Below are positions 13,582 through 38,408 of a stretch of 64,000 nt of DNA, piece after piece. Below the pieces are notes generated by a model. The model ran no database searches, was not told the origin of the DNA, and worked only from the letters and a program-made list of their open reading frames with translations. The DNA comes from Cafeteria roenbergensis (lineage: Eukaryota > Sar > Bigyra > Bicosoecida > Cafeteriaceae). Each line of letters starts with the position of its first letter. Within the stretch, counting starts at the first letter, position 1. The position numbers and the translations under genes were made by a program. The stretch lies in assembly GCA_008330645.1 (NCBI GenBank), contig VLTN01000012.1, positions 558,001-622,000 of the forward strand, given 5' to 3'.

Positions 13582-16500
13582 TCAAGCTCGGAACGAGAGT
13601 TGCGTGGACAGCGCCGCGTCAATGCGCAGGCTGGCCCAGAGGTCGAGCAGCTCCGCGTCGGACAGAGGGCGGTGAGGCTCGTGCCTTGGCGGCGCCGCCT
13701 GCTGCGCCGCAACGGCAGGGGCTGCCTGCTGGGGGCTCGGCGCAGGTGCTTCCAGCCCCAGCACGTCTCCCACACCAAGGTCCTGCCAAGGATCGTGGAC
13801 TGCTTGGGGAGCTGGCGCAGGCGTTGCTCCGAGGCCGGCCTGCTTCGCGGAGCTGCTGGTTGCATGCAGCAGCGGCCCGGCTTGGTCGCAGCTCGCCGTT
13901 GCCCGCCGAACGCCGTCCGCCGCGTCGCGCAGCCGCTGCGTGAGCCCCGTGCAGCGCGAAGACCCCTCAGACCTGCCAGCCGCAATGGCCATGGCTTGCT
14001 TCGTGCCAACGACCACGAGAAGCCGCTTCGCTCTGGAGAGAGCCGTGTACGCGAGCCCCCTCGAGAGCATCGGGAAATGAGATGTGTGCATGGCCAGCAC
14101 GACCACGGGCCACTCTGACCCTTGGGCCTTGTGAACAGTCATCGCATACGCCAGCTCCAAGTGCTTGCCAGCCTGCCCCCCGAAGTACTCGGCGTCCACG
14201 CCCTCTCCCATGGCCCCGCCGCCCCCTGCCGCTTCGAAGCGCACACCGACCACATAGCCGCCTCGGCCCTTGCCGCCCCGCTTCGCCGGCTGCCACCGCA
14301 CGCTCGTGACCGTGCCAACGTCACCGTTGATGACCCCCCGGTCGTAGTCGTTGGAGCGCTGCAGCACCAGGTCGCCAGGCCGCAGCGTCGCGGCGAAGCC
14401 GCTAGCTTCAGGCTGGGCCACACCTGCGGCAGTCCCCCCGTTCTGCCCGTCCGGGTTGAGCTCCGCACGGAGTCGCTCGTTGAGAGACGAGGTTCCCATG
14501 GGGCCCCGGCGCATCGGCGACAGCACCTGCATGTCCGTCAGCGGGTCGAAGCCAAGCTCTCGAACGAGCGTGAGCACGCGCCCTGCCACGTCATCCGCGC
14601 CACTCGCGCCGTCGCGCGCGTCGATCCAGACGCACGAGCCCGGGTGTTCGGATGCCGGCTGCAGCGCGCGGGGCAGCCGCGCAAGCAGCGGCGCGACGTC
14701 GTGCCGCACCGTTCCGCCGCCCGGTGCCCGCGGCTTGGCCGGCGCCACGGCATCCCAGTGCAGGAAGTCTCTCGGCACCTGTCCGGAGTTCATGGCGTGG
14801 GCGTTGCGGACAATGGGCGAGGCTGCCGCCTGCCGGAACACCTCCGTCAGGCGCGTCACGTGAGCGACGCCGCTGTCGATGACGTCAGCAAAGACGCGGC
14901 CGGGGCCCACGGAGGGCAGCTGGTCAGCGTCGCCCACCAGCATCAGGCGAGGCGGGGGCAGCCCGGGCGTGGGCGCGCGCACTGCCGCGAGAAGAGCTGT
15001 GGCCAGCCGCGCATCAACCATGGACGCCTCGTCGACAAGCACCGCGTCGGCGTCCAGGGGGTTCCTCGGCCCCCTGCCGAACCCGCGACCGTGCAGCGAC
15101 CCCCCCCCGCCCCCGCCCCCCCCGCCGGCGACGCCGCCGCCGCCGGAATGCGAGGTCGCCGCCGCAGCGCCGAAGCCCAAAGGCGCCGATGTGATGTCCC
15201 AGTCAGCCTCTGTCGCCCGCTGCCACGCGCCACCGCGGTCGGGCTCCGCCTCCGACTCGCTCGCCGCAACTCGCAGACTCATCGCCCCGGCGTCAGCAGC
15301 GCCGCCGAACGTGCCGCCGGCGACGCTGGCACCAGAATCGCCGGCGCCGGAGCCGGCGCCGCCGTCGTCGACAGCCCCAGAGGGCGGAAGCCTCAGAAAG
15401 GCAGCCGCCTCCTCTGCCTCGCCGGACTCGCCGGCGCGAGCCGCTGCCGGACCATCCGCACCGGAACCCGCCCCCGCAGCAACAATGCCCCCGCTGCCTC
15501 CACCAGCGGTTTCGCGTGGCGCCGCGAGGGGATTGCCTCGCTGCCGCCAGCTGCCGAACCCGGACAGCCTGATTGCCCCGAGACCCGCGAGGCGCTGGCT
15601 CGCGCCGCGGCCCTCGTCCCCGCCAGCGCCCGTTCCAGCGCCCGTTCCAGCGCCCGTTCCAGCGTCCGCCCTTCGGCCATACTCAAGCAGGCGGTGCAGC
15701 GTGACCGCCCTGGGGAAGGGGACCCCCTTGCGGGCCCCCACGGAGGCCCCCGCCGCGTCGGCGCCCCCACGCCTCACCGCCTCCAGCTCTGCCGACCACT
15801 CCCTCCGCTCCGGCTCCAGCATCTCGTTCAGCCGGTGCGCCGCTCTGGCCGTCGAACAGGCGAGCGACACGCGCAGGCCGCTCCGCAGCCAGGCCCGCAC
15901 TACAGCGCGCGTGGCGAAAGTCTTGCCCGTGCCAGGCCCTCCGCAGAGCACCGCCAGCCGGTGGGTCAGCGCAGCGTGAACGGCGCGAGCCTGGTCCCGG
16001 CTGAGCCCCCCCCTGGCGACGTCGTCATCGCTTCCAACGTCGGCCACACCCTCGCTGGCAGAGCCCTCGGCATCGCTCAAGCCGGAGGTGCCGGCGGGAT
16101 CAGCAGCCGAGGCCGACTCAGCGCTCTCCCCAGGGGGCCGCGGCGTGGCCAGGTCCGCAGCCAGCACCGCCAGCGACACGGCCAAACTATCCTCCGTTGA
16201 GGCCGCCCCGGGGGAGAAGGCTGTTCCGTTGAGCTCCCACCAGCCCGCGGCGGATTGATCCGCCGGCGCAGGCGTGCCCGGCGCGAGGCCTTGAGCCGGC
16301 CGCAGCACGGCGCCGGTGGCAGGATTGACCGGCAGGGCCGGGGCTGACGCGGGGCCTCCGGCCGGCGCGGGGTTGGGCGCCCAGACGACGTCGCCCTCAT
16401 CGATCATGCGCTGAATGGCTGTACGCACCGCCGTGTAGGCCGCGGTGGGGGCCGGGCCTGTGGCGCCAGGCGCTGCTGCCGCGGTCGCTGCCGCGGTCGC

Positions 16501-17760
16501 TGCCGCGGGAGCGGGCTGAGCCGGCGCCGCCCTGAGCCCGTGGGCGGCGAGCGCGGAGGCCAGGTCCCTGCCGCCGTCGGCGCCGCCGGCCCAGGCGGGC
16601 AGCCCCAGCTCTGCCGGGGAGGACCCGGTGTCCCTGGCGGGGGCGGGGGCGGGGGCGCGCCTGCCTGCTGAGAGGAGCAGAGTGATGGTCTGGGCGACGA
16701 GGGTCGCGCCCGGAAGGCCCGTGTGACCGCTTGCCACGCACGCTCGGAGCGCCAGCCGAACGGCAGCCTGCACGCGGGCGGGGTTGAGCTTGCCCAGAGA
16801 GAGGCTCCCGTCCAGCTGGCGGGCCGCTACGTCGTCCGCTGAAGCCAGCGACATGCCAGCGATCCTGCCAACGCTGTCGTAGGGGTCGCCTCGGAGGATG
16901 TCCGCGGCCGCTGCCGCGCCCAGCCTCGATGAAGCCCTGGCCGCCACGTCCAGGGGCATGCCCATGCCGTGCAGCTGCAGGGCGAGGCGCCCGCTCCCGC
17001 CGTCAGCGTCCCAGCCGCCCCGCATGCGTTCAAGCGACTTTTGGCCGATTCCCTTCACGGCCAGCAGAGCGGACCAGTCGTCTCCCATGAGGAGCTCCAC
17101 GGACCCCGCAGGGCCGAGCGCCTCCACGATGCGCTGCGCAGTGGCCGGGCCCACGCCCTTGAGCACGCCGCTGGAGAGAAACCCGACGGCAGCGGCCGGC
17201 GTGACAACCCCCAGCACGGAGCCAGGAGTGCTTGCGCCTTCAGCCCCGGCCGCGCCCGCCGCTGGCGCAGAGGCTGGGCCCCTGCTGCCGGTCTGCTGGG
17301 TGCGCTGCACCCGTGTGGACTTGACCTGCATGCCGTACTTTGGGTGCTGGACCCAGCGGCCGGACACGCCGATCACCTCGCCCTCGAGCACGTCGCCGGC
17401 GCCAGGGCCCGCGACGCGCACGTCCTTGTCGCCCACCCGCACCGCGAGGACGCCAAACGCGCCCCCGGTGCTAGGGTCGCCCCGGAAGTAGGACCTTGTC
17501 ACCGTGCCAATGAACTCTGCGGCCTTGCCGGCCCGGGGAGCGCTCGAGTCCGAATCGCTCGTCGAGCCCGCATTGGGAGCGGCCTGGGTGGCAAGGAGTC
17601 GCGATGCAACGCCTGGGCATGCAAGCGCGTCCGCCCAGGGCGCCAGGCCTCGCGCTGGCGGGGCCAGCGGGCTGCTGCCGAGAAGTCCGCCACGCGCTTG
17701 CGCAAATGCTCGAGCAGCCACCCTTGCAGGCCCGCTCGGCCGGGCGGCCCGCGCGCGCAT
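13582..17760 (-). CDS. RecD2-type SF1B DNA helicase, putatively organelle-targeted
   Basis: A single exon encodes 1,392 residues. The layout is that of bacterial RecD2: an OB-like N-terminal region (GTVTRSYFRG to LEGEVIGVSGRW, residues about 85-140), a helix-hairpin-helix part (GVLKGVGPATAQRIVEALG, then VKGIGQKSLERM), Walker A GGPGTGKTFATRAV near 606, Walker B VLVDEASMVDA near 907, motif III LMLVGDADQLPSVGPGRVF, MQVLSPMRRGPMGTSSLN, and the UvrD-C-like end TVHKAQGSEWPVVVLA and AYTALSRAKRLLVVVG from about 1210. RecD2 unwinds DNA 5' to 3' and acts in repair and fork rescue. The first 60 residues are Arg/Ala-rich without acidic residues (MRARAARPSGPARVAARAF), as in mitochondrial presequences. Ala/Gly/Pro linkers enlarge the protein well beyond bacterial length. 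The absence of introns in an intron-bearing neighbourhood would fit acquisition from bacteria. Confidence 0.92.
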   Translation of the reverse strand: MRARAARPSGPARVAARAFAQARGGLLGSSPLAPPARGLAPWADALACPGVASRLLATQAAPNAGSTSDSDSSAPRAGKAAEFIGTVTRSYFRGDPSTGGAFGVLAVRVGDKDVRVAGPGAGDVLEGEVIGVSGRWVQHPKYGMQVKSTRVQRTQQTGSRGPASAPAAGAAGAEGASTPGSVLGVVTPAAAVGFLSSGVLKGVGPATAQRIVEALGPAGSVELLMGDDWSALLAVKGIGQKSLERMRGGWDADGGSGRLALQLHGMGMPLDVAARASSRLGAAAAADILRGDPYDSVGRIAGMSLASADDVAARQLDGSLSLGKLNPARVQAAVRLALRACVASGHTGLPGATLVAQTITLLLSAGRRAPAPAPARDTGSSPAELGLPAWAGGADGGRDLASALAAHGLRAAPAQPAPAAATAAATAAAAPGATGPAPTAAYTAVRTAIQRMIDEGDVVWAPNPAPAGGPASAPALPVNPATGAVLRPAQGLAPGTPAPADQSAAGWWELNGTAFSPGAASTEDSLAVSLAVLAADLATPRPPGESAESASAADPAGTSGLSDAEGSASEGVADVGSDDDVARGGLSRDQARAVHAALTHRLAVLCGGPGTGKTFATRAVVRAWLRSGLRVSLACSTARAAHRLNEMLEPERREWSAELEAVRRGGADAAGASVGARKGVPFPRAVTLHRLLEYGRRADAGTGAGTGAGTGAGGDEGRGASQRLAGLGAIRLSGFGSWRQRGNPLAAPRETAGGGSGGIVAAGAGSGADGPAAARAGESGEAEEAAAFLRLPPSGAVDDGGAGSGAGDSGASVAGGTFGGAADAGAMSLRVAASESEAEPDRGGAWQRATEADWDITSAPLGFGAAAATSHSGGGGVAGGGGGGGGGSLHGRGFGRGPRNPLDADAVLVDEASMVDARLATALLAAVRAPTPGLPPPRLMLVGDADQLPSVGPGRVFADVIDSGVAHVTRLTEVFRQAAASPIVRNAHAMNSGQVPRDFLHWDAVAPAKPRAPGGGTVRHDVAPLLARLPRALQPASEHPGSCVWIDARDGASGADDVAGRVLTLVRELGFDPLTDMQVLSPMRRGPMGTSSLNERLRAELNPDGQNGGTAAGVAQPEASGFAATLRPGDLVLQRSNDYDRGVINGDVGTVTSVRWQPAKRGGKGRGGYVVGVRFEAAGGGGAMGEGVDAEYFGGQAGKHLELAYAMTVHKAQGSEWPVVVLAMHTSHFPMLSRGLAYTALSRAKRLLVVVGTKQAMAIAAGRSEGSSRCTGLTQRLRDAADGVRRATASCDQAGPLLHATSSSAKQAGLGATPAPAPQAVHDPWQDLGVGDVLGLEAPAPSPQQAAPAVAAQQAAPPRHEPHRPLSDAELLDLWASLRIDAALSTQLSFRA

Positions 17761-18034
17761 GGTGGCAACGCGCTGTCCGGCACAGCCGCTGCAGGTGCGT
17801 GCGTGTGGGGGCTGGTGGAGCTCTTCTGTGCGTCACGGGTGCGCGCCGTGGCGGTGTGCTGGCTGCGGGCCAGTGGTTGCAGAGCGCTGTGCGCGACCAG
17901 CTCAGACGCGCCGGCCCTGGTCGCGCGCAGCGGACGGGCAAACCGCGCCCTTGCTGGCGACCGCGGCTCGAGACCCTGCCCCTTCGTGCCGGCGGCAGCA
18001 CACGCAGCGTCGCGCAATCCGCCATTGCGCCCGC

Positions 18035-24590: not shown

Positions 24591-26342
24591 TCACGGGTCG
24601 AGCGAGGGCGCCGCGGGCCCCCTGACGCCCCTGGAGCGCCACTCGCCCAGCAGCCGCGCGCGCTCCACGTCCTCGATGTCGTCGCGCAGGGCCTCCGACT
24701 TGTCGAGCAAGTTCTCCTGCACGTCGGCCTTCATGCGCGTGGCGAAGTGGCCGATGCTGTGCATCTTGACCTGGCAGAGCCCCGTGGACTCCATGGCCAG
24801 CGACAGGGCGGTCACTGCGGCATCAGCCCTGTGGTCAGTCGCCCCCGACACGTCATCCATCGACTGCCTCGTAGCCTGCAGCGCCCGCACGAAGGCGTGC
24901 CCCATCCCGAGGAAGCACTCGTCGCCCTTGCTGTGCCGCCCCTCCGCGCGGTAGGTGCGCATGGCAGCGCAGATGCCGTTGCGAAGGACGTCGACGCTGG
25001 CGATAAGGCTGGTGCGAGACTCGTGCACGCGGGAGGGGAGGCGGCGGCAGTAGCGGCAGGGGAGGCCGAGGCCCTCGCCCAGCGGCTTGCCGTCGGTGCC
25101 GACGAGGTCGTCGTACCTGCGCGGGGGAAAGATACGGCGGTGTCGGCGGGAGGGCAAGTGGAGCGGGAGGGGGCGTGGCGGGCTGCTGGGCGAGGGGCAG
25201 TGCTGGTGCGGAGGCAAGGTGGCTCGGTCTGCGCCGCCGCCAGCGGGCAGGCCACCGGCGGGCTCCACCGGCTGTGTGCGCTGCTCACACAAGGTACGAT
25301 CCAGGGTCGACGATGCAGTCGAGATAGCGGCACGACGTCTCGAGGGACCACTTGCCGAGGTTGATGTAGTTGAACAGCTTGTCGCGCGCGTCGGGCCCCA
25401 TGTGCCCCGCCGAGCTCTCGATGAAGGCGTGGGCGCGGTTCATCTGGCGGGCCAGCTGCGCGCATCAGGGGCGACGGCCAACGGCGCGGGGCGGAGCGAG
25501 GGGGGGCTGAGGCGTGGCGACGAGGGCGCAACTGCTGGGGCGCGATCGCGGGCGACGATGTAAGCAGGCGCGAAGCGGGGCGAGGCGCGCGGCGGGGCGA
25601 GGCGCGCTCTCACCATGGCCACTCCGAGGTTCTGCGCCGGCATGAGCGGGTCGATGCCCGGGTCCACCATCCGGTGAAGGCCCATCTCCTGGCGCTCCTC
25701 CCTGCTCATGGAGATGAACAGGTCGCAGGCCGAGTCGATCTCGTTGTCGAACACGTGCTGCACCCAGGTGGACTCGTCGTAGTGGGCCTGGACGGGCGAG
25801 AGGTGGCTGAGCATCTCGCGGTGCCGCGCCACTGCGCGGTTCACCACCGCGGTGATGCGCTCCTGAGGCGTGTCGCCGTCGTTGGGGAGGAGGTTGGTGA
25901 ACTGCTGCACCCCGGCGTCGCACAAGGAGGCAGTCTCAAAGGTCACAAACGCGATTTCGCCGCCGACCTCGTCGGCGACCTCGGCAATGCTCTTCAGGCT
26001 CGTGTCCGACTGGCCCAGCTCCCGGTCCGGGGTGGTGCGCAGGGCCTCAATGTACACATCGGAGCGCTCCTTCTTGACGCACAGGTGGGGCAGGGTGCGG
26101 GGGGGCCGCGAGAGCTTCTTGCTCGAGTCCATGCGAACGTAGGCGAAGGCGCACTTGTGCTTGGTGTGGGCGCTGTAGGGGTCGTTGCTGTCCTCGCCGT
26201 CCCCCACGCACCGGGTGCAGCTGAAGCTCATCTCGCTGCAGCCAGCCAGTGCCGTGGGCAGGACCGCCACGGCCGCCAGGGCCAGCAGCGCAAGCGCCCG
26301 CCAGCCATTTGGGCGCGCCAGGGCCGCGGCTGGAAGCCGCAT
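24591..26342 (-). CDS. Secreted or ER-luminal protein of unknown family
   Basis: Three exons, 26342-25614, 25455-25289 and 25116-24591, encode 473 residues. I do not recognise the family. The start MRLPAAALARPNGW is followed by a hydrophobic core (LALLALAAVAVLPTALAG), a good signal peptide with likely cleavage before CSEMSF. Just after it comes a Cys-rich patch (SFSCTRCVGDGE, HKCAFAYV, HLCVKKE). Later parts are mainly helical and acidic: SIAEVADEVGGEIAFVTF, WVQHVFDNEIDSACDLFI, KLFNYINLGKWSLETSCRYL, LGLPCRYCRRLPSR and IGHFATRMKADVQENLLDK. About a dozen cysteines in total would suit disulfides. No ER-retention signal or second transmembrane helix is seen. Donors GTGAGA and GTGAGC, phases 0 and 2. 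It is divergent from another signal-peptide gene. Confidence 0.75.
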
Positions 26343-26719
26343 GGTCCGCGCGGTCGAGCAAGGCCTCTTGCCGCGGCAAGCGCACGGCCCGCGCTGCTGC
26401 TAGGCGGCAGGGGGGCGGTCCGTGGGCAGCAGGCCCGGCCGGTGCGTCCCGGGCGGCGCTCGGGCCGGCGCCTGCGGCTGCTGAGCAACGCGCCGTCTCT
26501 GCGCCGCCGGCTCTGCCAGGCGACAGGCAGCCACTGGCAGCGGAAGGGCGACGGCGCGCGAGAGCGCTCTCGCGGCGCTCGGGCCGGCCCCCCTGCGCAC
26601 ACCGCGCTCCCGGGAATTTGACCGAGCCCGGTCGTCGCCGCGCAGGGACTCGGGCCGGGGCAGAGTCGGGAGCCGCGATGCGGGGATCGTGCGCTGCGAG
26701 CAGGCGGGCGGACACGGGC
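26343..26719. promoter_or_regulatory. Divergent promoter region between two secreted-protein genes
   Basis: The 377 bases lie between start codons of two genes whose products both have signal peptides. It contains an 18-base perfect palindrome at 26557-26574 (CGCGAGAGC and its complement) and a 17-base direct repeat, GCGGCGCTCGGGCCGGC, at 26453-26469 and 26572-26588. Function as a shared control region is inferred. Confidence 0.45.
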
Positions 26720-28198
26720 ATGGCGATGCGTCTTCCGGTTGTCGCAGTTGCCGTGGCAATCCTTTCTCTGGGAGCCGTGGCGGCCGGCCCCGACCGCGAA
26801 GCCGCGCTCGAGCTGCGGGTGGCGCAGCTGGAGCGCCGCCTAGCACGCGTGGAGGCGCTTTGCGGCGCTGCGGCGGGCGCTGGCGACGGGCTCGGCGCTG
26901 ACCGACGGCGGCTTGCAGCGGCGGCCTCGAGAGGCCGGGGCCTGGCGGTGCCGCCTCCCGGGCTCCCTCCCGCGGCGGAAGATGTCCCTCTGCAGGAGGG
27001 CGAGGACGCTGCCGCGCTGGTTCGGGCGTTCCCGTCGTCCGAGGCCGTGCGGAGCCTGGGCCTGGGCGAAATGCTGATCGACCCGACGAGCCGCCAGCTG
27101 CAACTCGAGGGGCCGGAGGACGACGCCATTGTCGTGGAGCAGCCCGGCGCCTCACTGGCGCTGGCGGGGACGAGTGGCAACGGCACCGGTGCCGCGACCG
27201 AGGCCCGGCTGCGGGCGCTGGGCGTGCCTGCAGGCGGGTACAATCACACGGCGGCATTGCGCGCCGCGGTTGGCCCTGACGCTGTCCTGCCCGCCCCGAG
27301 CGCGCTGTCGGCGCTGGTGTCGTCGTCTCCGCTGGCTGCGCCCAACGTGGCCGCCATCGCGTCAGCTCTGGCTGCTGTCGTAGACTCGATGGGCCGGCTG
27401 GCCAATGCGGTGCCGCGACTGGCGGCCTTTCCAGGCGAGATCCGGGCCTTTGCCGCCGCGGCAGACGGCCTGCCTCGCGGGTGGGTTCCGGCCGACGGCC
27501 GCTGCTTCGCCGCCGGGGCCCTGCCCACGCTCTTCGAGCGGCTCAGCACCACGTTCACGCCGTACAAGCCCACCGGCTGCGCCGAGGGCACGCCCCACGC
27601 GTCCAAGTGCACACCGGGCTCACCGGTGGACGCGAACGGAACCTTTTGCGGGGTCCCGCCTCTCCTGGTTTGCGGCATGGACCCCCGCGTTGTTCTCCTC
27701 AAGTTTGCGCGAAACCGCACATTCTGCGTTCCAGATCTACGAGGTCGCAGCGTCGTGGGGGGCAGTGGCGATCCTCCCTTGAGCGATGCGCTGCTCGGCT
27801 CTGCATGCGTGCAGGGCAGCTCCTGCTCTCAGGCAACGCTCCTCAGCAGCGAGACGACGATGCCTGCGGCAGCCGGTCTCTCCGTGGCCAGGACGGGATT
27901 CGTGGGCGGCACGCAGACTCGCACGCTGACGCAGACTAACCTGCCAGCACACGCGCACTCTGTGGAGGAGCAGCTGCCCGCGAGCACCACCAAGCTCATG
28001 TACCTGCCGTCACCGAGCAGCCCCGACATGGAGTATTGCGCGGACAGCTTCACGTGCGATCTCGGGGGCTTTGGCCTCAGCCGCGCTGGGCAGCTCCTGG
28101 CGACGAAGCTCAAAACTGCCACGGTGGGGGGTGGGCAGCCGATTGATATCCAGGACCCGTACGTGGCGCTGACCTGGGCAATTTTCACTGGCGCATGA
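26720..28198 (+). CDS. Secreted protein with phage tail-collar-like C-terminal domain
   Basis: A single exon encodes 492 residues from ATG 26720 (an in-frame ATG at 26678 would add 14 residues before the signal peptide). The N-terminus MAMRLPVVAVAVAILSLGAVAAG is a clear signal peptide. A short coiled coil follows (ALELRVAQLERRLARVEALC). The C-terminal 240 residues look like the tail-collar / microcystin-dependent protein fold: GWVPADGRCF near 253, PTLFERLSTTF, FCVPDLRGRSVVG near 334, TRTLTQTNLPAHAHSV, and DPYVALTWAIFTGA at the very end. In phages this domain sits in tail fibres or baseplates; bacterial relatives occur as secreted proteins. Here it is joined to a eukaryotic secretion signal and a coiled coil, with ten or more Cys. 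Nothing else viral is near. A role in adhesion or a cell-surface fibre is only a guess. Confidence 0.82.
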   Translation: MAMRLPVVAVAVAILSLGAVAAGPDREAALELRVAQLERRLARVEALCGAAAGAGDGLGADRRRLAAAASRGRGLAVPPPGLPPAAEDVPLQEGEDAAALVRAFPSSEAVRSLGLGEMLIDPTSRQLQLEGPEDDAIVVEQPGASLALAGTSGNGTGAATEARLRALGVPAGGYNHTAALRAAVGPDAVLPAPSALSALVSSSPLAAPNVAAIASALAAVVDSMGRLANAVPRLAAFPGEIRAFAAAADGLPRGWVPADGRCFAAGALPTLFERLSTTFTPYKPTGCAEGTPHASKCTPGSPVDANGTFCGVPPLLVCGMDPRVVLLKFARNRTFCVPDLRGRSVVGGSGDPPLSDALLGSACVQGSSCSQATLLSSETTMPAAAGLSVARTGFVGGTQTRTLTQTNLPAHAHSVEEQLPASTTKLMYLPSPSSPDMEYCADSFTCDLGGFGLSRAGQLLATKLKTATVGGGQPIDIQDPYVALTWAIFTGA

Positions 28199-28832: not shown

Positions 28833-31800
28833 CTACGCATCGTCCGCCGACGGTCGCGACTGCGGCCACGCGGAGTCAGCAGGGCGAGACGGCCCCAGTC
28901 CCGAGGCCGCGTCGCTGCTGTCGGCGACGGCGGGGGGGCGGCGCCGCCCCGTGAGCCACGGGTGCTGCAGGGCCTTGCGAGCCGTGAGGCGGCGCTTGGG
29001 GTCGCGCTTGAGCAACTGGCGCATGAAGTCGAGGCCGTTCGCCGACCAGGAGTCCCAGCAAGCGTCGTTGAACGACACCCTGGCCTCAATGATGCCGCGC
29101 ACCACCTCGGAGTGGTCATCGCTGTCAAAGGGCAGCCGGCCGCGCACGACCAGATAGAGGATCACGCCCACCGACCACAGGTCGGCCTGCCTGCCGTAGC
29201 CCTGCATGGACAGCACCTCCGGGGCCACGTAGGAGAGGGTGCCGCACGGCATGGTCATCACCTCGTCCGGGTAGACGAGCTTGCTGAGGCCAAAGTCCGC
29301 AATCTTGAGGTCCTGCAGGCGCCTGCCGCAGAGAATGTTCTCGGGCTTGATGTCCCGGTGCACGATGCCGAGCGAGTGCAGGTACGCCACCGACTCGATG
29401 AGGGGCTTGGCAACGGTGCGCGCCTCCTCCTCCGAGAAGCGCTCGCGGCCCACGATGCGGCCGAAGAACTCGCCCCCCTCCAGCAGCTCCATGACGATGA
29501 ACATTGTGGCGCCGGTTTCGTACACGTTCTCCAGCCGGATGATGTGCGGGTGCTGCACCAGCTTGAGGACGGCGATCTCCGTGCGAAGCAGCTCCCGCTC
29601 CGACGGCTTGAGCTTGGTCTTGTTGATCACCTTTACGGCGTAACGTCGGGCCGTCTCCTTGTGCACGGCCTCGCGCACCACGCTGAACTGGCCGCGGCCG
29701 AGCTCCCTGCCCAGGTTGTACACCTCTTCAAACGGCACCGCCTTGCACGCCCGCCGCAGCGCCGCATACCACTCGTCTCGCTGCTCCCGGGAGGCGGCAA
29801 AGAGGGTGCGCGTGCGGTCGCCGTGCGCCGACGACGTGTGCACGTCCAGACCAAAGTACCCCTTCGTCTCCAGGGCAGGGTCGGAAATCTGCGTCACATA
29901 CGAGTCCTCGAGGAACAACACGCCCTGGGGGTGGCGGTGCGGGGCGCGCGACACGCCGTCCCGCCCGCCGGGCGCCGCCGCCCCGTCCGTGCCCTTGGCT
30001 CGCTCGCGCTTCGAGTACCAGTAGAGGAAGTTCTGCTGCAGGAAGTACCACCGCTTGGTCAGGAAGCCGGTGCGGGAGCCGCGCTTGTAGAGGTAGCCCT
30101 CGTGCTCGACCATCTCGCCTCCCCGGCCCTGCAGAGCCAGGGCTCTGCCGGACCCCGCCCCGAGAGCGACGCGTCGCAGCTGCGGCATCGACATGAACGA
30201 GCGCACGCTGCGGGCGGCGCCGCGGCTGCCCGCGGCACCGTCACGCGCGGCAGGCGGGCCCACGATGGGCAAGCCTGTCAGCTCGTCCTTGACAGGGGCG
30301 GCGGCGGCGGCGGAGGCGGCGGAGGCGCCCGCGCCCAAACTGGCAGCGGCGGCGCCCGATGTGGCGGCGCCGCCGGCGCCGCTGGCAGGCGGGGGCGCGG
30401 CGAAGCGGAGGCGGCGCTGGATTGCGGAGACGGCGGAAGGGGCGCGCGACCCCACGGCGCTGGGCACGGGGACTGACCCGGCAGTGCCCGCCCCCGCACC
30501 AGCGGCCGCGCCCGCACCAGCGGCCGCGCCGGACCTCGGGGGGCCGTGCCCAGTCGAGGAGCGCGACCAGGGTGCCACGGCGGGAGGGGGCGCGCCGGCG
30601 CGGTCTGCAGAGGCTGCCGACGCGGGGGCGCCCATGCGGTCTCGGGCGGAGAGCGGTGTTGCGGCGTCGGCGCCGCGGGGGGGCGGGGGGTGTCCCAGCG
30701 CGCCCGGTCTCGTGACGGGTTCGACGGAGGGGAAGAGGTGCGAGTGGCCGGAGGAGATGCCGTACTCGCGACGCAGGCCGCCGAAGCCGCCCCGGCCCGT
30801 GGTGTTGGGGGGCGAGGCCTTGAGGGACGACCCCGGGGCGAAGGAGGGCGCGGCCGCGGACGCCCCCAGCGCAAAGTCGGAGCCGAGGGTGGGCGGGAAG
30901 GGCCGGGACTGCGTGAGCGTGGCTGGCGAAAAGAGACCGGCGAGGGAGGGGGAGGGGGGCGGGGGCACGTTGCCGAGGGCCGAGCCGGCCGCGCCCGAGT
31001 CGGGGTTGGCGCCGATGCTGAGAGAGGGGGCGGCCGGGCCAAAGGCGGCGGGCGACGTGCCAATGTCGTGCACGGGGGGCGCGGTGGAGGCCGGGGGGGA
31101 GGGGCCGGATCCGGAGGCGGCCACCGATCCAGGGGCCGAGGCGACGCGGTGGCCGGCCTGCGGCGGGTACCCGGGCGCCTGCGCCGACGACGCGCTCCTG
31201 CCCAGCGCCATCCAGTCTGGCTGCGCCCGGCGCCGCGCGCACACGGGGCACCGACGGTGCACGGTCACGGGCCCGAAACCGCAGGCGGAGAGGAGGATCT
31301 GCGCCGCGGCCTGCGCCCGGGCCACCAGCACGGCGGGGGCCGGCCGGCCCGGGGAGCTGATGTCGCGCGGCGAGGGCACCGGTCCGGCAGAGCCGGGCAG
31401 AGCCGCCGCGTGGCCGAACGGGGTGGAGGTGTTCACGCGGAGCGACGGCGCGGGGCCAGACACGGCCGACGCCGAGGTGATGTCCGAGGGACCGCTCTCG
31501 ATGCCGGCAGAGCTGCACTGCGAGTCCCGCTTCCGGCGACGCCGCTCGCGGCGCCGGCGCGCCTGGAGCACGGAGCTCGTCTCGGGGTCCGCCGCCAAGG
31601 GCGCGCCGGCCGGCCCAGCCGCCTGGTCGGCGGTGATGTCGTGGCCCCGCCACGGCGCCATGGCAGGCTGCCGCACCGTCGCTGGGAGCGAGGCGCCGGT
31701 CACGGGCTCGTCCGCCACCAGCGTCTGCGTGGCCGCGCGCGGCCGGCCTGGCGGCAGCGGTACCGGTAGAGCCGATGCAGAGCCGGATCCTTCCACTGCG

Positions 31801-34800
31801 ATGCCGTTTCCAGCTGCGCCAGGGTCAGCAGAGCCGCCTGCCGCGGAGGATCGCGCCACGTCATCGGGGGGGCTGCGGTGCTGCCGCGGGGGCGACGCGG
31901 AGGACCCCTGCCTGGCGGGGGTCATCTGCGGGGACGACGCCGCCCTAGCCAGGGTCGCCGGGTGCACCGGGGGCGAGCCGGCAGCGGAGCCACTGAGGGC
32001 AGACTGGGCTGCCGCAGCCGCAGCGGAACGGGCGCCGGCCGACGGGGGGGCGGCAGAGCCGGCGATGCCGTCGCTCGAGGTCCAGCTGGCCGCCCTGTTG
32101 CCCAGCCCCCTGGTCATGCTGCCCGCCCGCGACCTGCCCAGGGGCTGGCGGGCCGCCGCCTCCGCCCCGCCCCCGACGACGTCTGCCTCGGAGCTGTCGC
32201 CGCTGTCGGTGCAGTCCTCCGTGTCCGTCGTGTTGACGTCGTCGTCGGCGAACTCGTGACCCTCCCACAGCGCGTCCAGGTCGTCGCCGTCGTGGAACGC
32301 GGCCATGCTTGCAGGGAGCCGCTGGTCCTCGAGCAGGTTCTGGAGCGGCGGCGCGAGCGTGTTGTTCGACCCGAAACCCGTTTCGTCGGACCTGTAGCTG
32401 CCCCCGCCCAGCGAGCGCCTGCCCGCGTCGTCCGTGCCGTCCGCGCTTGGGTCGGCAGAGCTGCCGCCGTCGGACTCGCCGCCAAACGTCTCCCCGGGCG
32501 CAGCGCCCGCCGAGGGGGGCGGGCGAAGCGCCCCGTCTGCCGGGACCGGCAGCGCGCCCGACGGCGAGGGAGCACCCGTCGCCGCGGCCGGGACCGAGCC
32601 GAACGAGGCGGCGTGGCCGATGCCCCCCTGCACCGCCAGCGAGGACGCGGCAGTGTGAGCGGCCGCGCCGGGGGCGGCGGTCGGGCCCTGCTCGGCCCCG
32701 CCCGCGCCGGCTGCGCGGCCCCCCCCGCCCCCGGACTGCGCCCGGGCCCTGGCCCGGCGCGCGGCCTGCTGCTCACCCTCGCTGCCGCTCTCCGTGACAG
32801 AGCTGTCCTCCTCAGTGGCCACCAGCCCGGGCATGACGGGCGGCATGGGCGGGCCGCGCAGCTGCGGGACGTCGCCGGCAGAGCTGGACCGAGCGATGCC
32901 GGGGGAGCGGGGGAGGCCGGAGCCGGGCGAGCCGTGGGCGCGGGGGGGGCTCGCGTGGCCGGCCGGCGGTGCGGAGGACTGGGCGCGGGGGTGGGCGCGG
33001 GGGTGGGCCATGCCGTGCGAGCCACCGTCGGAGGCGGTGCTGTAGGCGCGGGGACGGGCCGTGTGAGGCATGGCCTGCGACCCGCCGACTGCAGGGTCAG
33101 AGGCGGCCGCCGACGCAGGGCCCCCGGCGGGCGGCGAGATGTCCGTTGCGCCGCTGGGGTCATCCGCCTTGCCGGAGCTGCTGGTCGTGCTGCGATGGTG
33201 GTGGTGGTGGTTGCTGTGGTGGTGGTGGTCGTTGCTGTGGTGGTGGCCTTGCGAGTCGGCAGCTGCGGACGCGGGTGCAGCGCTGGCCCCCGTGGCCGAC
33301 GCGGGGCTCGGTCCCGCGCCCGTGGGGGCGTGCACGGGCGCTGGCTTGGCCGGCGCGCCCGTGGAGCGGGAGAGGTCTTCGTGCAGGAGCAACCGCCGGC
33401 CCATCTCGACCTTGCCGGCGGCGGTGCGGGCGTCGTCCGCCGCCAGGGCTGCGCGCGCGCCTGCGCTCAGCTGGCCGGGGCCGGCCCCCTTGCGGAGGCG
33501 TCGGCGGGAGGAGGACGGCCCGCTGTGGGCGGGCCGGAACGCCGGGGAGGCGATGGCGCTGGCGGCGGACAACGCTGCCGCCGCCTGCGTCGCTGCTCCG
33601 GCCGCGGACGACCGGGAGCCGCCGCCAGCGCCAGCGCCGCCACCGCCGCCGGGGAAGCCGCGGCGCAGCGACGCGCCCGCGGGGGAGGAGGTTACGCGTG
33701 AGTGGCCCGCGGGTGAGGCCGCCATGGGATCCATGAGACCGGCCTGACGCACCGCCTCAGCGAGCGCATCGGGGGAGAGGACGGAAGCCGCGCGGGTGTA
33801 CGCTGCGGCCAGCGCGCCGGAGAGGGCCGAGTTGCCCGGCAGGCGCGGGGGCGGGCCGGAGCGGGGGGAGGGGGTGGCGGGGCCTCCGGGCTGCTGCTTA
33901 GCGCGCAGCGCCGCGTGGACGCCGCTGCTGGTGGGGTCAGCTGACGCGATGAGCCAGGCGCCGGCTCGTGGGTCCCAGGCCGCGAAACTGCTCTTGTCGA
34001 AGGGCATGCCCGTGACGGCGCAGTGGCAGAGAGCGACGCGGCAGTAGCTGCAGCGAAGGCAGCGGAGGCCACCGAGCGAGTCGTCGGTAGAGCCGCCCGA
34101 GGCAGAGGCGGCGCCGCGAGCCACGGCGGTGGAGATGCTGCGGGAGGCTGGTCCGCTGGCGGCAGCCGCGACGGCGGCGGCGGCGGTGCCCGGGGCGGCG
34201 GCGGACGAGGCGGCTGCTGCTGCGGAGCCCGCTGAGGCGGGGGCGCGGGCTGCTGCCGAGAGGGCTGGTGCTGCTGTGGCTGGCGGGGGGGCAGCGGGCA
34301 GAGCGGAGGGGGCGCTGGCCGCCGCGGCCGCCGACGTCGCAGCTGACGCGGCGGCCGGAGCGGTCGCGGCGGCCGGCTTGGCGCCCGTGCCTTGTGGCAG
34401 GGGGGCCCTCGAGCCGCGCACCGCCGATGCCGGGGCGCTGCGCGTGTGGGCCTGGGCGTGGGCCAGAGCGCGGGCGCCCGGGGTGAAGGCTTGACCGTTG
34501 CCGGCAGCGGCGCCGCGCGCGGGGGTGCTGAGCGGCTCAGCGCCAAAGTACCACGGCGGGCGGAGCGCCCCCGCTGCCCCCAGGTACAGCGCCTCATCTT
34601 CGTCGTCGTTGTCCTCATGGGGGCGCGGGCCGGGGGTCGGGCGGGCTGCGGCTGGCGGCGGCGCCGCTGCCGCCGCGCCCGCGGCTGCCTCGCCCGAGGG
34701 CTGGCACAGCTTGGACCGTCTGCCCGCGCCGGCGGCGGGCCTGGGGCCGGGCCGCGCCGCAGGCTCCCCGTCCGGGCCGGTGAGCGAGTGCTGGCTCAGC

Positions 34801-36853
34801 GTGCGCGCGATGTCCTTGAGCTGGATGAGGCGCGCCGTGTGCAGAGCGGGGGCGTCGAGGGCGCTCCTGCCCAGGGCCGCGGAGGGCCCCACGCTGGGGG
34901 GAGGGCCCGCCTTGGGGTCACCGCTTGCAGGCGGCGGGGCGGCTGCGGCGGCGGCTGCGGCGGCCGCTGGCGGCTGCCCTGCGCCCATGCCAGCACCGCC
35001 GTTGGTTGCGGGGCGGTGGTGCTTGCTGCCTGTCTGGGGCGGGTTGGTCAGGACAACGTGGTCCTCGTCCGCGTCGTCGCTGTCGCCGCTTGACGCGCCG
35101 ACGATGGCGAGCTGATGGGCACGCCTGCCTGCCTCGCCTGGCAGGGCGTGCGCGTCGTCGCCCTTGTCCGACGAGTAGGGGAACACGGCCTCCAGGAAGG
35201 CCATCACCTCCGGGGCGTCGTGCAGCCAGCGCTTGAACGCCTCGAACCCTAGGCGCGCGCTCTCGTCCCCGCGGACGCCGCACTCGCGGAAGGCGCGGTC
35301 CACCAGCTCGGACACCCATCGCTCCGAGGAGCGCACGAGGCGCGAGGCGGTGCGCAGGTCCCGTGCCTCCCGCGCCTCGGAGCGAGCCACTTCCCGCGGC
35401 GTGGCGGCGAGCGCCGGGGCACCGCGGGGGGGGCCCAGGGCCGAGGCGCCGGAGCGGGGGGTGTCTGCCGCGGAGCGCGTGCTCTCGCACGGCGTGAAGG
35501 CGCCGTCGCTGTTGTAGCCCGTCGACGCGTCGGCGGGACAGCAGGCGTCAGAAGGCGGGTCGCTGTCGCTCGCCTCCGAGAGCGGCGTGTCCATGCCCCC
35601 GCGCGGGCGGGCCGACCCCGCTGCCGCGGCGTGCTCCGCTGCAATGATGCGGAGTTCCGTGGCGCCGCTGCGGCCGGCGCGACCGCGCGCTTCCGGCGCC
35701 GGCTTTGACGCCGCCTCCTTCCGGCCAGAGTGCGTCACAGACCGCAGCACAGGGCGGGGCAGGTGGTGCAGCAGCGTGCGCAGCTCGGCCCGCGACACGG
35801 AGCCGTCCCCCGACAGGTCGTGCACCTCAAAAATGAAGCGCATGCGGTCGTCCACGGAGCCGCGACAAACGCGCGCCAGGCCCACGATGAACTCCTCGTA
35901 GTCGACGGCCCCGGTCTTTTTAGTGTCGAACATGTCGAAAAGGCGCTCTGCGGGGGGCGGGTGGGAGGGCAGCGCGGAGCGCGAGGGCGCGAGCAAACAC
36001 AACAGCAGATGGCTTATGCGGGCGGTGCGGAGGAATCGCCTTCTGCGCTCGTCCTGCTGCAGCGCGCCAGCCAAGCAGCTCACCGCCGAGGAGCCCCGGC
36101 CAGGGAAACGCCTTGAGGAAGGTGTGCTTGTCGATCGTGGTGCCCGGGCTTCGCTCAGACAGCTCCTGCGGAGACGGGGCATTGCGGGGCAGCGCGAGAC
36201 AGCGTGGCAGTCCGCCCGAGCAGATGCCAGTGCGTTTCCCCGCCTGGCGGATTGCCCACGCCGGGACCCCGACGGGCCCTGCTCGCGCAGCGAGCGGCCT
36301 GGCGGCTTCCCAGCGGCGAGCTGAGGGGGCGGGGCAGGCACGTGGGGCGAGCGCGGCGCGACGAGGGCGGCCGTCGGAGCCGCGCCTGCTCGTCGTGCGA
36401 CGGAACGCCGCAGACCGCGCCGGGCCGCTGGGCGACGAGCGCCCGCCGCCTGCACCGGGAAGGGGAGGTCCGCGCTGCCCATACGTGCCCGGGGCGGCGG
36501 GGCCCGTTGTAGTCAGCAGGCTCGGCCTGGGCCGGCCCCGTCCTTGCCGGCAAACCGGCCGTGTTTTGGCTTCCGCATCCCTCACATTGAAGGTGGACCT
36601 GAGCACGGTCAGCTCCGACGCCGTGACTGCGAGGCGCAGGGAGGCGGGCGGGGTGGCACAGCTGGTCTCGCTCGGCGGCGCGCCCTGCCAAGGGGCGCGG
36701 CGGGGGGAGCCCGTGGCGCCGACTGGCTGCTGCAGGCGCCGGCCGCAGTTGCAGCCCGCCGTCCACTCCGCGAGCCTCGGGCCGCTCACACTGCGAGACG
36801 CCGCGCCGAAACTCATCGGACCCGATGCTGTCGCGGGTCGCCGCATTGCCCAT
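28833..36853 (-). CDS. Giant EF-hand / PH / CAMK-like protein kinase
   Basis: Four exons, 36853-36790, 36626-36586, 36165-36084 and 35947-28833, encode 2,433 residues. The first 130 residues resemble calcineurin-B-like EF-hand proteins: MGNAATRDSIGSDEF with Gly2 suited to myristoylation, ASELTVLRSTFN, TTIDKHTFLKAFPW, ERLFDMFDTKKTGAVDYEEF and IFEVHDLSGDGSVSRAEL, the last two being good calcium loops. A further EF-like segment lies near RWVSELVDRAFRECG. About 1,700 residues of Ser/Ala/Pro/Gly-rich sequence follow, with a His tract and two Cys clusters (RCLRCSYCRVALCHC, HRRCPVCARRR). A PH domain (EHEGYLYKRGSRTGFLTKRW to REQRDEWYAALRRA) starts near 2006. The kinase domain has GRELGRGQFSVV, YAVKVI, HRDIKPEN near 2259, DFGLSK near 2278 and VAPEVL, all catalytic residues intact. 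PH plus kinase resembles PKD. The combination suggests a calcium- and lipid-gated kinase. Confidence 0.88.
33196..33247 (-). repeat. CAC/CAT triplet tract encoding a His-rich segment of the giant kinase
   Basis: On the plus strand the tract reads as repeated GTG and GTT triplets; on the coding strand it gives a run with twelve or more His broken by Ser, Asn and Asp. It is an in-frame triplet expansion in the disordered middle of the kinase protein and could bind metal or be length-polymorphic. Confidence 0.85.
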
Positions 36854-37278
36854 CCGGTGGTGGTGCCCCCGCTTGCTTTGCGCGGCGGTGCGGCGCGCTC
36901 GTGTGTGCCGCGTGCAGCGCGTTCGATTGGCGGGCGCAGGGCAGAGCCTCGCGCCGGCCGCGTGGTGCGCCGTGCGCCTTGCCAGCGGCCCTTCCCTGCA
37001 GCGGCGAGGCAACGAGGCTTCCCAGCGCATCCTGGAGCGCCAGCAGTGTGTCGTGCCTGCTGAGGGGTGGCTTGGGGGCATTCGGCGCGTGCGCCACCTG
37101 TCACACGCGTGCGCTTCGGCGCTGGCAGCGCTTGCTTGGAAAATCGCACGCACAGCAGCGCAGCGGGGCGCGATTGGCAGCGCACACTCCGGGAAACAAA
37201 ACGCACCCTACCGACACGGAGAGCAGTGTTGGTTCCGGCACATGCGAGCGAAACACATTCGCTCAGCGCCCCGCCGCC
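36854..37278. other. Intergenic stretch upstream of the giant kinase gene
   Basis: The 425 bases lie between the kinase start and the Rab stop, both on the minus strand. They should include the kinase promoter. No coding frame or repeated element is evident. Confidence 0.45.
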
Positions 37279-38408
37279 TCAGCAGCACCCCGATCCAGCA
37301 GCCGGCTTCTCCGCACCGTCGTCGTCGTCGTCGGTGACCCGCACCGTCCGACCGCCCTTGCCCGCGGGCGCCGAGCTGGCCGCCGCTCTGGCGGCCAGCA
37401 CGCGGTCAGTCAGCTGCTGGAACAGCTCGTTCACGCCCGCGCCGCTCCGGCAGCTGACCTCGACGAAGGCAGCGGCGCCCACGGACTCCGCCAGCTCGCG
37501 CCCGCTGGCCTCCGTCACCTGCCTCCGCGCCGCCAGGTCGGCCTTGTTGCCCACGAGCAGCACCGCCACGCCGTCCCCCACGCGGCCTCGCAAGTCCCGC
37601 ATCCACTGGCGCACGTTCTCGAGGCTCTCGCGCACCGTGATGTCGTACACCATGACCACGCCCTGCGGGGGACGCGGGCGGCGGGGCGGGCGGAGGCGGC
37701 AGGGGGGCAGCGCTGGCGGGGCGCGGGGAGGGGGGGGGGGGCGGGCCGTCTGTTGCGCCGCCGGCCTCACGCTCAAACAGCCTCCAGCGCGCGCTGCGTG
37801 CAAGGTACAAGGTGGCCGTCGGGAGTGGCGCCGGCCTTGGCTCACATCGGACCCCTTGTAGTACCCCGCGGCCATGGAGCGAAACCGCTCTTGCCCGCTG
37901 CGGACGCGCAACCGAGAAAAACCACACCCGAGCGCGGGCAGCGCGACGTCAAGCCAGGCGGTGTGCGCGGGAGGGCCCTCGCTCGGCCGACCCACGCGCA
38001 CGAGCCGCCCCCCTTCCCCCTCCCAGAGAGCCGGGGCGTCAATCTCGCGGAGTGCGGCGCGCTGCGGCTCACGCGGTGTCCCAGACAGTGAGCTTGACGG
38101 GCGACCCGCCGCTGTCGATCACCTTGGTGGCGTAGTCGATGCCGATGGTCGAGGTCATTCTGCGCTTGGCGCCAATCGGAGTCCCGCCGCGGGCTGGCGT
38201 CGGGGCAGCGTCGCAGCGGCGCGGCAAGTGCTTGGGCAACGGCCGAGCAGGCCGGGCTGCCGAGGCCGCCAGAGCGAGCCAGAGGACCACCTCACGAGGG
38301 GCTGAACTTGTTGTCAATGAACCGCTTCATGATGGAGCTCTTCCCCACCCCGGAGTCGCCGAGCATCAGGATGCGCAGCGAGACCTTGGGCTCCGCGGCG
38401 GCGGCCAT
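37279..38408 (-). CDS. Rab-family small GTPase
   Basis: Four exons, 38408-38296, 38159-38073, 37897-37846 and 37662-37279, encode 211 residues. All G motifs are present: P-loop GDSGVGKSS (18-26), effector Thr in MTSTIGIDYA, WDTAGQERFRSM, GNKADL and a weaker fifth motif in EVSCRSGAG (usual ETSAK). Rab-specific strands IGIDYATKVI and KLTVWDTAGQERF and the stretch YYKGSDGVVMVYDIT place it in the Rab1/8/10-like group. The C-terminus GSGCC offers two cysteines for geranylgeranylation. A basic-acidic tail (RTVRVTDDDDDGAEK) precedes it. Rabs direct vesicle traffic between membranes. Exact subfamily cannot be fixed by eye. The gene has three introns, donors GTGAGG, GTGAGC and GTGAGC, and diverges from the repeat protein gene with 272 bases between. 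Confidence 0.93.

Follow-up and report, generated by a model that had tools for sequence, protein, structure and literature searches.

The 64-kb window of Cafeteria roenbergensis DNA analysed here, the whole stretch considered in this study, contains a gene whose product carries N-terminal EF-hands, a very long linker, a PH domain and a C-terminal protein kinase in a single open frame. By this architecture the protein is likely to be a CDPK7-type kinase, CDPK7 and PITG_08008 being compared through their published descriptions. A preliminary description of the same DNA had held that no protein of this order was known. That claim fails because the order EF-EF-linker-PH-kinase is already in print for PfCDPK7 of Plasmodium falciparum (PMC3227725), TgCDPK7 of Toxoplasma gondii (PMC7909640) and PITG_08008 of Phytophthora infestans (PMC3019232); rather than a new architecture, the protein appears to be another example of the CDPK7 layout. 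Since C. roenbergensis, a bicosoecid flagellate, is a free-living stramenopile, it would be a further stramenopile case beside PITG_08008.

The gene comprises four exons encoding 2,433 residues and a stop (Table 1). The spliced translation has no internal stop and the three introns, of 163, 420 and 136 bases, are all of the GT...AG type, so that the four-exon model and its coordinates, as originally proposed, hold. When exons 1–3 were added to the query, matches to calcineurin B chains in the PDB rose in score (6tz6_B from 35.5 to 47.1 bits, 6tz8_B from 39.0 to 50.2, 1aui_B from 39.3 to 43.0), KChIP2 (7ukh_I) gained 1.2 bits, and 4il1_A, GCAP1 (2r2i_A) and NOX5 (6sz5_B) lost 0.6, 2.2 and 2.4 bits, respectively; the queries with and without these exons differ at the C-terminal end too, and the sequence support for exons 1–3 is modest and mixed. 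The frame of exon 1 is open upstream to a stop at 37210. Because it contains two further in-frame ATGs, at 37030 and 37081, the MGN start reported earlier is not forced: the model does begin with it, but it is one of three possible starts. A search of the entire window against Rfam gave no matches.

Table 1. Features of the gene and its predicted product; positions are those of the window
Feature	Residues	Positions	Strand	Basis and remarks
Whole gene	1–2,433	28833..36853	-	EF-hands, long linker, PH, kinase; spliced frame, GT-AG introns, Pfam
Exon 1		36790..36853	-	begins MGN; putative N-myristoylation site if that ATG is used
Exon 2		36586..36626	-	part of degenerate first EF unit; GT-AG borders; calcineurin B and KChIP PDB alignments cross it
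Exon 3		36084..36165	-	remainder of degenerate first EF unit; GT-AG borders; PDB alignments cross it
Exon 4		28833..35947	-	EF-hands, linker, PH, kinase, stop; single open frame
EF loop 1	70–81	35892..35927	-	Asp at position 1 and Glu at position 12 kept; Lys at 3, Thr at 5; by eye; EF-hand_1 match 64–87
EF loop 2	106–117	35784..35819	-	canonical by eye; EF-hand_6 match 97–124
Possible degenerate last EF unit, after insertion	280–325	35160..35297	-	by eye
Cys cluster 1	692–705	34020..34061	-	five Cys; sequence
His tract	964–980	33195..33245	-	sequence
Cys cluster 2	1629–1632	31239..31250	-	CxxC; sequence
PH domain	2009–2131	29742..30110	-	Pfam PF00169, 52.0 bits (cut-off 25.1); further search puts PH at same place
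CAMK-type kinase	2139–2394	28953..29720	-	Pfam PF00069, 256.2 bits, model 1–263 of 263

The Pfam scan of the full-length model, suggested as a check in the preliminary description, found the EF-hands, the PH domain and a full-length protein kinase. In the N-terminal module, EF-hand_1 and EF-hand_6 each match two stretches above the curated cut-off, at approximately residues 64–124. Two good EF loops had been noted there; inspection by eye bears this out for loop 2, whereas loop 1 is poor on account of the residues at its positions 3 and 5. Among the PDB matches of this part, calcineurin B, KChIP and neuronal calcium sensors rank ahead of CBL, and on the four-EF plan of the calcineurin-B/NCS type the matches span units 1–3. 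A PDB sequence search with the candidate fourth unit returned designed helical repeats alone. Single-sequence structure predictions were of low confidence and unusable for both the EF part (mean pLDDT 49.4) and the PH-kinase part (36.2).

The PH domain, which matches PH domains in the PDB weakly (best E 0.0012), lies directly before the C-terminal kinase. The latter has intact catalytic motifs (the Gly loop, VAIK Lys, HRD, DFG and APE), and its best matches among solved structures are CaMK1 (E 9.5e-66), CaMK4 and DAPK1. In a canonical CDPK the EF-hands would follow the kinase; here the chain stops 39 residues past it. Assignment to the CIPKs (SnRK3), of which the NAF domain is the mark, was likewise rejected, no NAF match being found after the kinase in Pfam at E up to 1. 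The preliminary description drew a comparison with CBL and CIPK, which are two separate proteins. For the kinase this comparison does not hold: it is nearest to the three structures just named and to PH-bearing kinases of its own genome. On the EF side, CBL ranks behind the sensor families named above. Protein kinase D resembles the Cafeteria protein in that a PH domain precedes a CAMK-group kinase, but it has C1 domains and is not known to carry EF-hands, whereas Pfam found no C1 domain in the Cafeteria protein. One review ranks CDPK7 as the parasites' closest PKD1/2 ortholog. SCAMK, described as a single-chain sensor-kinase fusion of Metakinetoplastina, has its kinase N-terminal and its EF-hands C-terminal; it and CBL-CIPK share with the present protein the combination of calcium sensor and kinase, and the descriptions compared mention a PH domain for neither.

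PfCDPK7 (PF11_0242) is entered in a 2011 kinome table as EF.EF-long linker-PH.KD (PMC3227725). It shares with the Cafeteria protein the paired EF-hands, the very long linker, a PH domain right before a kinase near the C-terminus and a similar length (2,265 versus 2,433 residues), although it belongs to a parasite of another phylum and the likeness is one of described architecture. TgCDPK7 (TGGT1_228750) is reported to have two N-terminal EF-hands, a long linker, a PH domain beside the C-terminal kinase and a putative myristoylation motif (PMC7909640), to which the optional MGN start would correspond. According to the same report it binds PI4P and PI(4,5)P2, whereas lipid binding by the Cafeteria protein is a prediction. 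Its length is 2,133 residues in one report; an older table gives it 1,346 residues and no EF-hands (PMC3227725) and SnCDPK7 is also given without them (PMC5371900), so that published accounts do not assign EF-hands to all CDPK7 proteins. PITG_08008, from the potato-blight organism, was described in 2010 with RT-PCR (PMC3019232) and shares the N-terminal EF-hands, the intervening PH domain, the CAMK kinase and a stramenopile source; its EF-hands were called weak and, in the cited account, bound no 45Ca, whereas one loop of the Cafeteria protein is canonical. Among the literature matches listed (in one search, the best 8 of 3,113), no paper dealt with the Cafeteria gene.

Within the same genome, the best scorers against the window kinase, among loci taken from the matches listed, are two PH-bearing CAMK kinases (202.9 and 195.1 bits) at loci C37, where PH domains flank the kinase on both sides, and C46; neither has Pfam EF-hands. 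In a tree limited to this genome the two group with the window kinase with support of 80/81, on a branch that is not starred. The tree started from 26 matched stretches in 23 loci picked from the matches listed; of these, the 15 that spanned 225 or more model positions entered the tree with the window kinase and 11 were dropped. EF-hands following a kinase in the same open frame occur at C8, in three kinases at C18 and at C16. Because the three C18 kinases are among those dropped, the tree is weak on placement relative to canonical CDPKs; the C8 kinase, which was kept, has a long branch. No light-harvesting proteins were matched in this genome, which speaks against a photosynthetic host, and a search of viral contigs for relatives of the PH-kinase part gave two pattern matches, neither confirmed.

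The linker (residues 341–2005) invites the objection that two genes, one for an EF-hand protein and one for a PH-kinase, are joined by chance, as long open frames persist easily in GC-rich DNA: two of 737 and 720 codons lie on the other strand of this region, and Pfam recognises no domain in the linker. Its 1,665 codons, however, contain no stop in the gene frame, as against 10, 15, 8, 8 and 24 in the other five, an absence with a chance of about 2e-7 on base composition alone; third-position GC equals or exceeds that of the first and second positions in all 17 blocks of the model (with one tie), and PfCDPK7 and TgCDPK7 are described with the same long linker. Because of the missing stops and the pervasive third-position bias we read the linker as coding, and the two-gene explanation is very improbable. 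What had been called 1,700 disordered residues is a long low-complexity linker of about 1,660 residues, 61% of them Ala, Gly, Ser or Pro, a composition that suggests disorder. The His tract and two Cys clusters noted earlier are present; none matches a Pfam family at E up to 1.

We tentatively suggest, as a quite possible history, that EF-linker-PH-kinase proteins form one orthologous family older than the split between stramenopiles and alveolates; parasite CDPK7 would therefore have been inherited from free-living ancestors, its original job lying in general membrane traffic or signalling. The layout might instead have arisen separately in stramenopiles, by fusion of an EF module to a PH-CAMK kinase independently of apicomplexan CDPK7. 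The authors of the PITG_08008 report argued that their protein arose by fusion from an ancestral PH-kinase resembling PITG_06259 (PMC3019232), and the EF-less C37 and C46 kinases could be read in the same way, but their grouping comes from sequences of one genome, and the order, the long linker and the direct PH-kinase junction are all shared with CDPK7, for which two fusions are the less simple account. We regard separate origin as unlikely. A loss of the calcium response, leaving the EF module structural or docking and the kinase under the control of lipid and phosphorylation only, has more in its favour, though it is on the whole doubtful: loop 1 is poor, the PDB search gave no support for the additional EF-like stretch and the Phytophthora protein is reported as 45Ca-negative, yet loop 2 is canonical and above the Pfam cut-off, and the thermal stability of TgCDPK7 is reported to shift with calcium.

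Most likely the Cafeteria protein works in the way proposed for CDPK7: its PH domain would bind membrane phosphoinositides and so place the kinase, myristoylation of the MGN end, where that start is used, may provide a second anchor, and the EF module, with its one canonical and one poor loop, may tune activity or partners. Lipid binding, myristoylation, a calcium response and any membrane-traffic role are properties that we infer, whereas the domains and their order, the single open frame and the intact catalytic motifs are read from the sequence itself. The protein had been proposed to be a single-chain calcium-to-kinase switch at membranes. A membrane-associated kinase with a built-in EF module is a fair description, in keeping with that of CDPK7; calcium control is plausible but unproven, the two relatives with calcium data give a mixed picture, and PMC7909640 states that there is no evidence for calcium regulation of CDPK7.

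If the proteins are orthologous, the CDPK7 plan is found in a free-living bicosoecid as well as in an oomycete, which suggests that it is not a parasite invention and that its calcium and lipid control could be studied in a harmless, culturable flagellate. Should the single ancient family prove true, this culturable bacterivore could reveal the original job of CDPK7. In addition, the Cafeteria protein has one EF loop that is canonical by sequence, to set against the oomycete protein reported as non-binding for calcium.

Judged by its domain order, EF-hands followed by a long linker (aa 341-2005), a PH domain and a kinase, the gene belongs to the already described layout of the apicomplexan kinase CDPK7. 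The preliminary description was largely right in its observation and wrong in its claim to novelty, since the order it thought undescribed is in print for PfCDPK7 of Plasmodium falciparum (EF.EF, ~1,600 residues, PH.KD; 2,265 aa; PMC3227725), for CDPK7 including TgCDPK7 of Toxoplasma gondii (two N-terminal EF-hands, long linker, PH adjoining the C-terminal kinase; PMC7909640) and for the RT-PCR-confirmed PITG_08008 of Phytophthora infestans (N-terminal EF-hands, PH, kinase; PMC3019232). Two entries speak against uniformity of the CDPK7 family: SnCDPK7 is described without EF-hands (PMC5371900) and TgCDPK7 likewise in an older table (PMC3227725).

Features of the gene and of its best-scoring listed match in the same genome
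Feature	Position	Strand	Remark
Gene model exons	36853-36790, 36626-36586, 36165-36084, 35947-28833	minus	spliced: 2,433 codons + stop
EF-hand stretches	aa 64-87 and aa 97-124	minus	Pfam
PH domain	aa 2009-2131	minus	Pfam, 52.0 bits
Kinase domain	aa 2139-2394	minus	Pfam Pkinase, 256.2 bits, full-length match
C37 kinase, PH-kinase-PH	L013:1191-4391 (G000:C37)	minus	

The exons proposed previously were reproduced, with three GT-AG introns of 163, 420 and 136 bases. The window has 69 to 80% GC per 4-kb block. GC-rich DNA opens long frames by chance, and the strand opposite the gene carries open frames of 737 and 720 codons over the same region. Against a chance origin, the gene's own frame has no stops in the 1,665 linker codons (chance ~2e-7, computed from base composition; the other five frames have 10, 15, 8, 8 and 24), and in all 17 blocks of the gene model neither of the first two codon positions exceeds the third in GC. 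Support for exons 1-3 is mixed in sequence comparisons with the PDB: their addition lifts calcineurin B chain matches by 4 to 12 bits (6tz6_B, for example, from 35.5 to 47.1) but lowers some neuronal sensor and NOX5 matches by at most 2.4 bits.

Two good EF loops had been described; by eye, loop 2 (aa 106-117) is canonical, whereas in loop 1 (aa 70-81) position 3 is Lys and position 5 is Thr. The MGN start is only one option, since upstream of it the frame continues without interruption as far as a stop at 37210 and includes further ATGs at 37030 and 37081; if used, the MGN end would conform to the N-myristoylation rule. Residues 280-325 resemble a last EF unit by eye only; in the PDB this region matched designed repeat proteins alone, and the predicted structure model covering it was of poor quality.

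The domains, their order and the catalytic motifs are directly observed. As previously reported, a PH domain and a complete CAMK-type kinase were found by the Pfam scan, the latter retaining the glycine loop, VAIK lysine, HRD, DFG and APE motifs and matching CaMK1 best in the PDB (E 9.5e-66), then CaMK4 and DAPK1. The PH domain alone gave weak PDB matches to PH domains (nine sequences at E <=0.1, best 0.0012). Two linker Cys clusters on the minus strand, 34020-34061 (five Cys in 14 residues) and 31239-31250 (CxxC), matched no Pfam family and are possible metal sites.

Among the 98 matches listed in a search of the same genome for relatives of the PH-kinase part, the best after self was C37, a CAMK kinase flanked by PH on both sides (202.9 bits with the window kinase), followed by C46, a kinase with PH far upstream (195.1 bits). 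Both group with the window kinase in a 16-row tree from this genome (support 80/81, a branch that is not firm). Kinases followed by EF-hands in one frame scored far below C37 and C46 in the comparison with the window kinase, at 92.3 (C8), 56.3, 53.1 and 50.8 (three in C18) and 51.5 bits (C16), several being partial. This agrees with the account given for P. infestans, in which a PH-kinase and an EF module were combined; the kinase of PITG_08008 has another PH-kinase as closest relative (PMC3019232). No light-harvesting genes were found in the genome of C. roenbergensis, a bicosoecid stramenopile.

Only 39 residues, without EF-hands, follow the kinase; the canonical CDPK switch, with EF-hands after the kinase, is thus absent, which leaves phosphorylation or the N-terminal side as the source of control. 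CDPK7 is reported to bind PI4P and PI(4,5)P2, and TgCDPK7 has a putative myristoylation motif (PMC7909640). By analogy, the PH domain would recruit the kinase to membranes rich in phosphoinositides and the EF module would be the regulator, with a possible additional lipid anchor at the N-terminus. The single-chain calcium-to-kinase switch at membranes suggested earlier is, on this analogy, plausible for a CDPK7-type kinase. A thermal shift of TgCDPK7 that depends on calcium is reported (PMC9436416); according to PMC7909640, calcium control of CDPK7 has not been demonstrated, and PMC3019232 gives the PITG_08008 EF-hands as weak, with no 45Ca binding.

A Rab-like GTPase (Pfam Ras, 84.7 bits; top PDB match Rab1A) forms the end of the next gene upstream on the same strand (37282-38118, minus); the visible exon spans the C-terminal half, with CC as final residues. 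TgCDPK7 is reported to act on Rab11a; the adjacency here may be chance. On the plus strand of this eukaryotic nuclear contig, an open frame at 26225-28195 includes a domain of the phage tail collar family (Pfam Collar, 30.9 bits against a cut-off of 24), and one long open frame at 13585-17832 (minus) encodes a bacterial-type RecD2-like helicase with OB, helix-hairpin-helix, AAA_30 and UvrD_C_2 domains.
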